From Pseudomonas sp. FP2335 (GTDB lineage Bacteria; Pseudomonadota; Gammaproteobacteria; Pseudomonadales; Pseudomonadaceae), in the NCBI RefSeq assembly GCF_030687535.1, contig NZ_CP117437.1, forward strand, positions 1,199,501 through 1,263,500: DNA of 64,000 nt. The letters are read 5' to 3'. How positions within the stretch are numbered: position 1 is the stretch's first letter; each line of letters opens with the position of its first letter. Shown here piece by piece: positions 50,261-53,493 of the stretch. The notes below the pieces were generated by a model. That model had not been told where the DNA came from and did not search any database. It saw only the letters and a program-made list of their open reading frames with translations. The position numbers were made by a program, and so were the translations under genes.

Positions 50261-51010
50261 ATGCAGCAACTCATTAACCGCCGTGCCGTGATCACCGGCG
50301 CCGGCAGCGGCATCGGTGCTGCCATCGCCCGCGCCTATGCCGTCGAAGGCGCGCGCCTGGTGCTGGCCGACCGCAACGCGGCGAGCCTCGCCGAAACCGC
50401 GATCACCTGCCGCAACCTCGGCGCCGAAGTGGTCGAATGCCTGGCCGACGTCGGCACCGTCGACGGTGCCCAGGCCAGCGTCGACAAGTGCGTCGAACAG
50501 TTTGGCGGCATCGACATCCTGGTCAACAACGCCGGCATGCTCACCCAGGCGCGTTGTGTCGACCTGACCATCGAGATGTGGAACGACATGCTGCGCGTCG
50601 ACCTTACCAGCGTGTTTGTCGCCAGCCAGCGTGCCTTGCCGCACATGCTCGCGCAGCGTTGGGGGCGGATCATCAACGTCGCCTCGCAACTGGGCATCAA
50701 GGGCGGTGCCGAGCTGACCCACTATGCGGCCGCCAAGGCCGGGGTGATCGGCTTTACCAAGTCCCTGGCGCTGGAAGTGGCCAAGGACAACGTGTTGGTC
50801 AACGCCATCGCCCCTGGCCCGATTGAAACGCCGCTGGTGGGCGGCATCAGCGACGACTGGAAGCGCGCCAAGGCCAAGGAACTGCCCCTGGGCCGCTTCG
50901 GCCTGGCCGACGAAGTCGCGCCCACCGCGGTGCTGCTGGCCAGCGAGCCGGGCGGCAACCTGTTTGTCGGCCAGACCCTCGGCCCGAACTCCGGCGACGT
51001 CATGCCATGA
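50261..51010 (+). CDS. SDR-family oxidoreductase (second)
   Basis: A 249-residue short-chain dehydrogenase with TGAGSGIGA, NNAGML and the catalytic [21 protein letters not shown] (Ser, Tyr, Lys). The C-terminal part lacks the usual TG..(I/L)xVDGG ending: it reads VGQTLGPNSGDVMP, so the last strand and loop differ from normal SDRs. Start ATG at 50261 follows TAAGGGGAT. It heads the four-gene accessory set with the CxxC protein, COG0523 GTPase and PotD-like protein. Confidence 0.85.
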   Translation: MQQLINRRAVITGAGSGIGAAIARAYAVEGARLVLADRNAASLAETAITCRNLGAEVVECLADVGTVDGAQASVDKCVEQFGGIDILVNNAGMLTQARCVDLTIEMWNDMLRVDLTSVFVASQRALPHMLAQRWGRIINVASQLGIKGGAELTHYAAAKAGVIGFTKSLALEVAKDNVLVNAIAPGPIETPLVGGISDDWKRAKAKELPLGRFGLADEVAPTAVLLASEPGGNLFVGQTLGPNSGDVMP

Positions 51011-51023
51011 GCGAGGTGTAGCC

Positions 51024-51317
51024 ATGTGCGGACTCTGCGGGCTGCTCGGCGAAGACCTGCACTGGAGCGACCCCCTGGGCGACGAGTTGCCCAGGCGCCG
51101 CGAGCGCCTGCGCCGGATCGCGGCGATTAACCAGGTGCTGGCGGTGTTCCGGCTCAAGGTCGAAGACTTCCAGGGCGCCTCGTACCTGTTGCTCGGCGCC
51201 ACGGGCAAGCAGGAACTGGCCAGCGGCCTGGATCAACTGTGGCAGGCCGCCGAAACCATGCTCGGCCGTGCGCTGGACCCGCTCGATCCAAAATTGCTCG
51301 ACCATCTTGAACACTGA
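51024..51317 (+). CDS. 97-residue CxxC protein of unknown function
   Basis: I do not recognise this family. It starts MCGLCGLLGEDLHW, giving an N-terminal Cys2-x2-Cys5 pair, then a helical Arg-rich segment (PRRRERLRRIAAINQVL) and a hydrophobic beta-like stretch (FQGASYLLLGATGK). MCG resembles the start of class II glutamine amidotransferases, but the rest of that domain is absent. Two Cys close to the N-terminus fit metal or redox chemistry. It starts 13 bp after the SDR and is followed 29 bp later by a metal GTPase gene. Confidence 0.75.
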   Translation: MCGLCGLLGEDLHWSDPLGDELPRRRERLRRIAAINQVLAVFRLKVEDFQGASYLLLGATGKQELASGLDQLWQAAETMLGRALDPLDPKLLDHLEH

Positions 51318-51346
51318 ACCCGCCCGCTGTGGCGAGGGAAACGACC

Positions 51347-52321
51347 ATGAGTATCGCGCTGAACGTCATCACCGGTTTCCTCGGCAGCGGCAAGACCACC
51401 TTGCTCAAGCGCCTGCTGCAAGGTGAAAGCCTTGGCGACACCGCGCTGCTGATCAATGAATTCGGCGATGTCGGCATCGACCATCTGCTGGTCGAAGCAG
51501 TCGCGCCGGACACGGTGCTGCTGCCCAGCGGCTGCGTGTGCTGTTCGATTCGCGGCGAGTTGAAAGACGCGCTGCTGGGCCTGCTGCAACGCCGCGAGCG
51601 TGGTGAAATCCCGGCGTTCAAGCGGGTGATCCTGGAGACCACCGGCCTGGCCGATCCAGCGCCGATCCTGGCCACTTTGAACAATGACGTGCAACTGCGC
51701 GGGCGTTTTCATATCGGCCTGGTGATCACCTTGGTCGACGCCAGCCACGCCACGCTGCAAGAGCGCCTGCACCCGGAATGGCTGGCCCAGGTCGCGGCGG
51801 CGGATCGCTTGCTGCTGAGCAAGACCGATGTGGCCGGTGATAGTGGCCCACTGCGCGCGCACTTGCAGGCGCTGAATGCCGGCACGCCCATCCTCAACAC
51901 CCACGAGATCCACAGCGGCGACCAATTGCTGCTCGGCGAAGGCCTGCGCAGTGCCGAGCCCGCCGTGGAGGTCGGCCGCTGGCAACTGCACCAACCCGTC
52001 AGCGCCACCCACGGCGCCGCGCAGGTGTGCTGCCTGACCTTCGAGCAGCCGTTGGATTGGGTCGGTTTCGGGGTGTGGCTGTCGATGCTGTTAAGATGCC
52101 ATGGCGAACGAATCCTCCGGGTCAAAGGACTGCTCAACGTGAACGCCAGCCACGCCCCCATCGTCATTCATGGCGTGCAGCACTGCCTGCATGCCCCGGT
52201 GCATTTGCCTGCCTGGCCGGGCGACGAACGCCAGTCGCGCCTGGTATTTATCCTGCGCGGCCTCGACCCGGCGCTGCTGCGCCGTTCCTTTGAAGTGTTC
52301 TCACGGCGGTTCGCCCAATGA
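51347..52321 (+). CDS. COG0523 (CobW/G3E) metal-chaperone GTPase
   Basis: A 324-residue G3E GTPase. Walker A is GFLGSGKTTL, the metal-binding CxCC is in SGCVCCSIRG (Cys63, 65 and 66), switch II is ETTGLADPAP, and the base-recognition motif is SKTD in place of NKxD; a CobW C-terminal domain follows. The family delivers Zn, Co or similar metals to client enzymes. No Zur box is visible nearby. The likely client here is the metal-dependent imidase-like enzyme upstream, or the CxxC protein. It overlaps the next gene by 4 bp. Confidence 0.88.
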   Translation: MSIALNVITGFLGSGKTTLLKRLLQGESLGDTALLINEFGDVGIDHLLVEAVAPDTVLLPSGCVCCSIRGELKDALLGLLQRRERGEIPAFKRVILETTGLADPAPILATLNNDVQLRGRFHIGLVITLVDASHATLQERLHPEWLAQVAAADRLLLSKTDVAGDSGPLRAHLQALNAGTPILNTHEIHSGDQLLLGEGLRSAEPAVEVGRWQLHQPVSATHGAAQVCCLTFEQPLDWVGFGVWLSMLLRCHGERILRVKGLLNVNASHAPIVIHGVQHCLHAPVHLPAWPGDERQSRLVFILRGLDPALLRRSFEVFSRRFAQ

Positions 52322-53493
52322 TCACCTTGCGGGTGCTCGGCACCTCCGTGACCTTACTGGAATGCCTGCGCGTGCGCGCCGAGCAGGAACTGGGTATTCG
52401 CCTGGTCTATCAGGTGCACGACGTCGAACAGGCCCAGCGCATTGCGGTGATGCAGCCCGACAGCTACGACCTGTACGACCAGTGGTTCCACAACGTCGAC
52501 TTCGTGTGGCCGGCGCGGGCGATCCAGCCCATCGACACGCGGCGCATCGCGCTGTGGCACGAAATCAACGACCTGCCCAAGCGCGGCCGGCTGTCGCCGG
52601 ATGACCGCCTCGGCAGCGGCAGCGTGCCCAGTGAGCGCCTGTTCGTGCAGCACGACGGCAGCCTCGGCAGCACCGTCACCGAACGCATCAGCATGCTGCC
52701 CCTGACCCACAACGCCGACAGTTTCGCCTACCGCCCCGAACGGCTGCCCGAAGGCTTTTGCCACCGCAACGAAAGCTGGGGCTGGCTGCTCGACCCGGCC
52801 TGGAGCGCACGCACCGCGCTGCAAAGCGACGCGGCCATCGGCGCACTGGACGCGGCATTGGCGGTGCAGGGCGCGGGTCTGGCACAGTTCAAGGACATCG
52901 GCAACATGAGCATCGAAGAGATCGACGTGCTCGCCACTATCCTGGTGCGCAAACAGAAGGAAGGCCACTTCGCCGCGTTCTGGTCGGACGACGAAGAGGC
53001 TGCCCAACTGATGCTCAGCCCAAGTATCGACATCCAGAGCCTATGGTCACCGACCCTGATGCGCCTGCACCGCGCTGGGGTGAAATACCGCCTGGCGGTA
53101 CCGCGCGAGGGCTATCGCGCCTGGTTCGGCGGCCTGTCGTTGTCACGGCATGCCCGGGGCCCGGTGCTGGATGCGGCCTACGCCTACCTCAATTGGTGGC
53201 TGTCCGGCTGGCCCGGCGCAGTGATGGCGCGCCAGGGTTACTACATCGGCAACCCGGCCCGCAGTCGCGATCACCTGAGCAGCGCCGAGTGGGATTACTG
53301 GTACGCCGGCCAACCGGCCCGGGAAGAATTGCTCGGCAGCGATGGCCTGCCGCTGATCGACATCGGTGAAGTGCGCGATGGCGGCTCCTACGAGCAGCGC
53401 ATGGGGCATATCGCGGTGTGGAACTCGGTGATGGACGAGCACAACTACTTGGTACGGCGCTGGGGCGACTTCATGCGCGCCCGCACCCTGTGA
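52318..53493 (+). CDS. PotD-like solute-binding protein without signal peptide
   Basis: A 391-residue protein with the two-lobed fold of family 1/PotD solute-binding proteins (MITLRVLGTSVTLLECLRVRAEQELGIRLVY at the start; DAAYAYLNWWLSGWPGAVMARQGYY near the end). No signal peptide, Tat motif or lipobox is visible, and no permease or ATPase gene is nearby. It therefore seems a cytoplasmic binding protein or a repurposed enzyme. Start ATG at 52318 overlaps the GTPase stop (ATGA), showing coupling. The last 17 bases of its coding region are copied 25 bp further on. Confidence 0.78.
   Translation: MITLRVLGTSVTLLECLRVRAEQELGIRLVYQVHDVEQAQRIAVMQPDSYDLYDQWFHNVDFVWPARAIQPIDTRRIALWHEINDLPKRGRLSPDDRLGSGSVPSERLFVQHDGSLGSTVTERISMLPLTHNADSFAYRPERLPEGFCHRNESWGWLLDPAWSARTALQSDAAIGALDAALAVQGAGLAQFKDIGNMSIEEIDVLATILVRKQKEGHFAAFWSDDEEAAQLMLSPSIDIQSLWSPTLMRLHRAGVKYRLAVPREGYRAWFGGLSLSRHARGPVLDAAYAYLNWWLSGWPGAVMARQGYYIGNPARSRDHLSSAEWDYWYAGQPAREELLGSDGLPLIDIGEVRDGGSYEQRMGHIAVWNSVMDEHNYLVRRWGDFMRARTL

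Follow-up and report, generated by a model that had tools for sequence, protein, structure and literature searches.

What do a short-chain dehydrogenase/reductase (SDR), a mini-protein of 97 amino acids, a COG0523 GTPase and a relative of the binding protein PotD accomplish together when their genes lie end to end in a bacterial genome? We addressed this question in a 64,000-nucleotide stretch of the 6.06-Mb genome of Pseudomonas sp. FP2335 (hereafter the window, with positions counted from its first letter), in which the four genes follow one another on the + strand as SDR2 (50261..51010), the mini-protein gene (51024..51317), the GTPase gene (51347..52321) and the PotD-like gene (52318..53493). 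As a sequence-only reading had stated, the spacing is tight, with gaps of 13 bp and 29 bp followed by a 4-bp overlap. That reading took the four for a self-contained module, but we find that they are the distal half of one operon, and that the unit that persists across genomes consists of a cyclic-imide hydrolase (CIH) encoded upstream, the mini-protein and the GTPase.

Extent and conservation of the operon

After a divergent gene for a GntR-type regulator, the operon runs amidase, CIH, major facilitator superfamily (MFS) transporter, SDR1, SDR2, mini-protein, GTPase and PotD-like protein, and in the Pseudomonas locus L003 the operon proteins are 98–100% identical to those of the window. The sole wide break is the 138 bp between SDR1 (49362..50123, + strand; a classical SDR by domain match and locus comparison) and SDR2 (assigned in the same way). 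This gap holds a REPIN, a pair of repetitive extragenic palindromes (REP), which the REP core and a hairpin of -79 kcal/mol place at 50138..50240 (ends approximate, no strand). The window has five such pairs, with 15-base cores that start 72 bp apart; the other copies lie near 20582, 34573, 36224 and 63619. In other genera the SDR1–SDR2 gap is short (6 bp in Pantoea, L083; 6 bp in Klebsiella, L084; 22 bp in Paraburkholderia, L086), and because the break in the window is a REPIN, the apparent left edge of the four-gene set is that REPIN and not the start of a unit. Among 78 measured loci, the gap exceeded 60 bp in 49, ten of which have a REP core in it (a minimum of -768 given in the comparison of 80 named loci below is an artefact from loci without SDR1).

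Conservation was followed in 80 named loci, the best of 137 confirmed ones, which were selected for the mini-protein and comprise 79 from Pseudomonas and 1 from Halotalea. All nine genes were found in 66 of them; nine of the other 14 are cut at contig ends and five have no amidase. SDR2 was matched in 80/80, and the GTPase and the PotD-like protein in 79/80 (one contig ends), with median identities of 92–96%. Because they are matched across these loci, SDR2, the mini-protein, the GTPase and the PotD-like protein are genuine genes rather than chance frames. The most conserved operon protein is CIH (median identity 100%, minimum 85%), and the amidase, matched in 68 loci (seven misses at contig ends, five with intact flanks), has a median of 84% and a minimum of 60%; for both proteins the window query was longer by two residues at its N-terminal start. 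SDR2 has a Rossmann domain (PF00106, 194.2 bits) and the YxxxK motif as YAAAK and, as noticed from the window alone, has lost the usual C-terminal motif: in place of the classical GQ..DGG it ends GQTLGPNSGD, near-uniformly in 77 of the 80 loci (GQTLGPNSGDVMP in 67, S>A in 6 and G>N in 4; the remaining three matches end early). SDR1 keeps its C-terminal IDGG, both in the window and in the 68 true SDR1 ends listed.

The linked hydrolase, mini-protein and GTPase

The evidence for the persisting unit comes from two genome surveys that were not selected for the mini-protein, of 398 genomes of the phylum and 364 of the class; scoring in both was confined to the top candidates of a permissive first pass (12–13 per genome for the mini-protein), so misses are possible. 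In the phylum survey CIH orthologues (65% or more) occurred in 10 genomes, five of them from the window's genus, and the mini-protein in the same ten, with three further CIH matches at 37–39% left out; in the class survey both occurred in the same five genomes (CIH at 58% or more). Two genomes are common to the surveys, which leaves 13 distinct genomes with both proteins, and the hypergeometric P values for co-occurrence are 4e-20, 2e-11 and, by genus, 9e-12, with kinship ignored. The two genes are never more than 3.2 kb apart in the 13 genomes: in six about 3 kb, with the MFS and SDR genes between them, and in seven adjoining or with only the GTPase gene between. The GTPase gene adjoins that of the mini-protein in 13/13 (in L172 the two are 0.7 kb apart and a possible frame intervenes), and because mini-protein and GTPase lie on the strand opposite CIH in two of the 13 (L207, L208), the link to CIH exceeds shared transcription. 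All 60 listed plasmid records of the mini-protein, many of them near-copies, likewise contain CIH DNA: within 1.2 kb on the same strand in 49, within 5.7 kb in nine (in one, from Halomonas, on the other strand) and adjacent in two, one of which has CIH split over two frames.

The four genes as a set fared differently. In 7/13 genomes CIH has the two SDRs and a PotD-like protein without signal nearby, and in the other six the mini-protein and GTPase accompany CIH without SDR2 and a signal-less PotD-like protein nearby. On a Halomonas plasmid (L210) the operon is rearranged into two divergent units, one with mini-protein, GTPase, PotD-like protein and amidase and the other with CIH, MFS, SDR1 and an SDR2-like protein (46%). 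By independent occurrence, the test set in the sequence-only reading itself, a module of these four is thus not supported, and it is CIH, mini-protein and GTPase that stay together.

Neighbourhoods around this unit vary (a urea transporter and carboxylase, a hydantoinase, thiamine-like genes, a molybdate-type transporter), as they would if the mini-protein and GTPase merely rode along in catabolic operons and had their metal clients elsewhere. We regard this as improbable, because CIH is the constant partner in the varied neighbourhoods and no mini-protein without CIH appeared in the 13 genomes or the 60 plasmid records.

Single records differ in detail. On two Rhizobium tumorigenes plasmids (L211, L223) CIH, mini-protein and GTPase stand alone, just 5′ of a set named urea ABC transporter, which in L211 is followed by a urea carboxylase gene. 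In L172 (8667-14480), where a 190-aa frame separates mini-protein and GTPase, the three genes lie beside thiO-, thiS-, thiG- and thiE-like genes and an NMT1-type transporter (judged by eye). The CIH of Rhizobium johnstonii L224 (2103-2979) is in two frames, and copies in other records are intact. The Rhizobium ACO-34A plasmid pRACO34Ad holds CIH, mini-protein, GTPase and PotD-like protein, and the Halomonas plasmid has a second PotD-like gene (59%) about 3 kb beyond.

At first sight a 'polysaccharide deacetylase', CIH (47114..47992, + strand) belongs to the HpPgdA/HxnM family. Residues 1-291 of 292 align with Helicobacter pylori HP0310 (HpPgdA; PDB 3qbu) at 539 bits (E 1.8e-161), and D12, D14, H86, H90, W127, W128 and H247 are kept at HP0310 numbering, with metal ligands and site residues as given in PMC3084791. 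Both the full-length homology and the metal-site residues expected of an HpPgdA-like CE4 imidase are therefore present. In that paper HpPgdA is reported to have a closed site of small size, to lack a signal peptide and to be inactive on the polysaccharides, acetylated amines and allantoin that were tried. Imidase activity has been reported for a relative, the Pseudomonas putida enzyme cited by PMC9304392 and PMC8478523. For the Aspergillus nidulans protein HxnM, 64% identity with the cyclic-imide hydrolase of P. putida and a structure like 3qbu are reported; it is proposed to open the 3-hydroxypiperidine-2,6-dione made by HxnW, an NAD-dependent dehydrogenase of the ketoreductase/polyol-dehydrogenase type, with the amidase HxnN as the next enzyme (PMC9304392). 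The operon likewise combines dehydrogenase, imide-opening hydrolase and amidase genes, a likeness by gene type, whereas HxnS, HxnX and HxnV, which modify the ring earlier in the A. nidulans pathway, have no counterpart among its genes. From these relatives and their chemistry we read the operon as one of imide (or hydroxylactam) catabolism, which probably breaks down cyclic imides. What sets it apart from HP0310, the P. putida YZ-26 imidase and HxnM, besides the window copy's imidase role being a prediction, is the addition of the mini-protein and COG0523 GTPase in these bacterial operons.

Elsewhere, C–N hydrolases of varying family often accompany CIH. Its neighbours include asparaginase, amidase, hydantoinase, N-carbamoyl-amino-acid hydrolase, hydantoin racemase, an isochorismatase-type hydrolase, 5-oxoprolinase and urea carboxylase, which mostly act on C–N bonds of imides, hydantoins, lactams or ureas. 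A second CIH of Rhizobium ACO-34A (plasmid pRACO34Ac, L213) adjoins an asparaginase gene and one named pyridoxal 4-dehydrogenase. The H. pylori 26695 annotation (PMC3866246) names HP0309 an N-carbamoyl-D-amino-acid amidohydrolase, leaves HP0311 hypothetical and gives HP0312 the label of ATP-binding protein; by analogy HP0310 to HP0312 are possibly the same triple of CIH, mini-protein and GTPase. If HP0311 and HP0312 prove to be that pair, a metabolic interpretation would open up for HP0310, whose status as a 'peptidoglycan deacetylase' is disputed.

The mini-protein, which we described by alignment and a structure model, begins MCGLCGLLGEDLHWSDP... and so with the CxxC (C2, C5) that had been pointed out together with the CxCC of the GTPase. 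It has no Pfam or NCBIfam match; a profile search found 1325 relatives, and none of the 120 listed has a Pfam domain. M1, C2, C5, G6, W14, G61, W73 and D85 are invariant in 29 diverse rows, and H13 is nearly so. In the model (pLDDT 82.7) a loose N-terminus (residues 1-20, pLDDT ~50) bearing C2, C5, H13 and W14 precedes a core of one helix, three strands and two helices, for which a fold search gave no clear PDB match. The MCGxCG start resembles the N-terminal cysteine nucleophile of class II glutamine amidotransferases, with no Pfam or clear fold match to go with it. Literature searches found no description of the mini-protein or of its linkage with CIH and the GTPase, in keeping with the earlier description of the set as undescribed.

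The GTPase, assigned by motifs, domain match and tree, is a YjiA-like member of COG0523 (G3E), with Walker A GFLGSGKTT, the CxCC motif as GCVCC, and matches to PF02492 (cobW, 137.1 bits) and PF07683 (CobW_C, 77.5 bits) over their cut-offs. It thereby shares the G3E domain, CxCC and CobW_C with YjiA, Nha3 and CobW. COG0523 proteins are regarded as metal insertases or chaperones, and the activator Nha3 is likewise clustered with its dependent metal enzyme, nitrile hydratase (PMC2770081). Seven places in the window's genome carry a cobW domain. A tree of 36 GTPases separates the 15 CIH-linked ones from 21 paralogues of six genomes with support of 92/74, a value under the tree tool's mark for a shown branch, so that the branch counts as neither shown nor rejected; the tree left out four duplicates of linked rows, two loci without a match, L204-L206 and places without loci. 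Membership in this CIH-linked group and the mini-protein partner distinguish the window's GTPase, with CIH as its presumed client. COG0523 GTPases are widespread and few have a known client. In the CIH-linked group both the candidate client and the small partner are constant and the host is easy to manipulate genetically, which makes client, metal and partner directly testable. The GTPase gene is apparently tandem-duplicated in Pseudomonas veronii (L020, 10413-12360).

We consider it an even call that the operon serves imide catabolism with the mini-protein and GTPase as an accessory pair for the CIH metal and the PotD-like protein binding a pathway compound. The MFS transporter (48011..49351, + strand, from a domain match) would import a cyclic lactam or imide, SDR1 and SDR2 would oxidise hydroxy(lactam) groups to yield a cyclic imide, CIH would open the imide to a half-amide in a metal-dependent step, and the amidase (45780..47102, + strand; PF01425), a proposed half-amide hydrolase, would free ammonia and a dicarboxylate. 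The mini-protein, through its flexible Cys-Cys-His tip, and the GTPase, through its CxCC metal site, may load or maintain the CIH metal under GTP control, chiefly at metal shortage. The PotD-like protein may bind the pathway's substrate or an intermediate inside the cell as carrier, buffer or enzyme. The operon would thus be of a known chemical type, and carries an undescribed mini-protein with its own COG0523 group, tied to CIH, together with a cytoplasmic derivative of a Tat-exported binding protein.

A different role for the mini-protein, as a small subunit or regulator of CIH (in assembly, allostery or active-site protection) that the GTPase serves instead of the CIH metal, would account for its tracking CIH as closely as the GTPase does, and for a core past the Cys tip that is conserved (W14, G61, W73 and D85 are among the invariant residues) and has no clear PDB match. 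HpPgdA by itself is a homotetramer (PMC3084791), the COG0523 family is seen as inserting or chaperoning metals (PMC2770081), and the GTPase gene stays beside that of the mini-protein in every one of the 13 genomes; a subunit role is therefore unlikely in our estimate.

Several points weigh against metal loading of CIH in imide catabolism. Neither mini-protein nor GTPase is universal: of the 81 plasmid CIH records we opened ten beyond the 60 listed mini-protein records (a 61st mini-protein record possibly among them), and the mini-protein was present in five (L086, L212, L214, L217, L218) while neither it nor the GTPase was found in the fetched flanks of the other five (L213, L215, L219-L221). 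CIH without either nearby is seen in the second copy of Rhizobium ACO-34A (79%), in Rouxiella (71%; one flank seen for 3.3 kb only) and in three haloarchaea (51–53%). Because CIH occurs without them, the mini-protein and GTPase are not universally needed and appear accessory to CIH, not indispensable. The earlier proposal that the genes may mature the upstream imidase remains the best fit to the linkage of mini-protein and GTPase, but half of the plasmid CIH loci opened beyond the listed mini-protein records, haloarchaea included, show neither gene nearby. HpPgdA produced in Escherichia coli carried a metal ion (PMC3084791), and HP0310 has also been named a peptidoglycan deacetylase, with kinetics on chitin, chitosan, acetylated xylan and p-nitrophenyl acetate (PMC3688963). 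Zinc loading does not explain L208 (6004-9955), in which a row of genes for a molybdate-type ABC transporter (SBP_bac_11, permease and an ATPase with TOBE) overlaps at its end with the mini-protein and GTPase genes and CIH is convergent. A Zur-like site, as in the zinc-starvation subgroup of COG0523, had no match in the window (one consensus, at most two mismatches; a weak test, with 1.3 expected by chance), H13 of the mini-protein is Gln in Pantoea and Klebsiella, and the GTPase branch falls short of the mark given above. An enzyme for the second hydrolytic step is not available everywhere, as we found no amidase near CIH in Pantoea At-9b, in the scanned genes of L208 or in five loci of the named 80; Pantoea At-9b and those L208 genes also show none of the C–N neighbours listed above. 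Finally, we found no binding, metal or activity datum for any operon protein.

The PotD-like protein and its exported cousins

The PotD-like protein matches PF13416, and its model (pLDDT 93.8) predicts a type-II substrate-binding protein (SBP) fold, with YdcS, PotF and PotD as nearest folds. It begins at strand 1 without a signal peptide, and the upstream frame has space for only about 8 more residues (open frame 399 aa). The 120 relatives listed of 1829 are 57–97% identical. Four of these have no start motif (fragments or late starts), and none of the remaining 116, taken as listed relatives with the gene neighbourhood seen for a minority, has a convincing export signal by a hydrophobicity and twin-arginine rule on N-termini (not SignalP). 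Three are marginal: P0212 has RR without a hydrophobic stretch, and P0171 and P0216 have a mildly hydrophobic 8-mer. The absence of a signal peptide, claimed from the window alone, is thereby borne out, and a cytoplasmic location is supported.

Relatives of the protein fall into three tiers by identity: A, at 55% or more, from seven genomes that all have CIH, B, at about 44–50%, and C, at 34–39%. The loci examined for tier B came from 24 of about 30 places, and those for tier C from 14 places and L171. Tier B has twin-arginine signals in 22/24 loci (not seen in L129 and L136), and in 19 of 20 readable loci the following gene falls within a single large cluster, three scanned members of which are hybrid histidine kinases; these loci (L120-L143) form a sensor-like branch of the family in many proteobacteria that is mostly of the twin-arginine translocation (Tat) type. 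Tier C has twin-arginine signals in 15/15 loci, all beside ABC permease and ATPase genes. On the sequences of these cousins, we take the PotD-like protein to be a Tat-exported binding protein that has lost its signal and has been kept in the cytoplasm. With its exported cousins beside it, the clade would make a clear case of this change.

Rhizobial operons carry both a twin-arginine SBP2 and a signal-less PotD-like protein, and in L171 a C-type transporter runs straight into CIH, mini-protein and GTPase. These dual SBPs and the L171 arrangement suggest a family ligand that is part of the pathway and is bound by clade A inside the cell. The statement that the PotD-like protein has no transporter is correct for its immediate neighbourhood, and none of the nine operon genes encodes an ABC permease; the operon does include the MFS transporter, which ABC transporter genes replace in its rhizobial and Thioclava versions.

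Comparison of 23 A, 25 B and 19 C rows, sorted by identity alone (one B row, the Thioclava operon copy L087 at 46%, is really A, and as annotated it starts without space for a signal), gave H58, D61, H375, N376 and R380 as special to clade A, and E264-G-Y-R267, N132, D134 and W269 as common to clade A and its kinase- and transporter-linked cousins. In a profile alignment to PotF variants, the acidic pocket residue after AWF in PotF, an Asp that presumably binds the amine, aligns with Gly in the PotD-like protein, which makes a polyamine ligand unlikely. This exchange, the lack of an export signal and the lack of ABC partner genes in the operon all separate the protein from PotD, PotF and YdcS.

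Because His58 and His375 are special to clade A there is room for catalysis, and THI5 and MqnA are enzymes on an SBP scaffold. An enzyme acting on a pathway intermediate would suit the identities of the listed relatives, high for a binding protein, the clade A residues and the clade's confinement to the cytoplasm. The core residues common with kinase- and transporter-linked cousins point instead to plain ligand binding, and we recognise no catalytic motif known to us; we therefore leave the enzyme as a doubtful, minority possibility. A role in handling metal for the GTPase and mini-protein, like that of the intracellular iron-binding protein FutA1, would fit the FutA1 and FutA2 matches in a Foldseek search, the clade-specific invariant His residues and the overlap with the GTPase gene. 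It is very unlikely, as the PotD-like protein is not near CIH, mini-protein and GTPase in 6/13 genomes, the nearest folds are YdcS, PotF and PotD, and in L171 a transporter-type cousin and CIH share one row of genes. A pathway ligand bound in the cytoplasm is the reading we prefer. The boldest combination, in which the mini-protein and GTPase would be a dedicated, undescribed two-protein metallation system for CIH and the PotD-like protein would found a cytoplasmic Tat-loss clade that carries or transforms an imide-pathway intermediate, we put forward tentatively, as possible rather than probable.

Regulator and flanking features

The divergent regulator (44454..45488, - strand) is a GntR-type protein of 344 aa with an FCD domain, and was matched in 72/80 named loci, the eight misses being loci that end at contig ends. 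Two operator-like palindromes of the type TGTAC-N13-rTACr lie between its gene and the amidase gene (45568-45596 and 45735-45763, no strand), and GntR may control the operon from these twin operators. Such palindromes occur in 66 of 72 intergenic regions between GntR and amidase or CIH vs 0.095 per kb across whole loci, with a pattern fitted to the window and loci that are mostly close relatives.

On the far side, a long inverted repeat unlike the REPIN in sequence lies 3′ of the PotD-like gene (53500-53660). Downstream of the operon are two similar GGDEF-EAL type proteins (53781-56216 and 57018-59441), both of which, from their translations as judged by eye, apparently carry a periplasmic sensor region.

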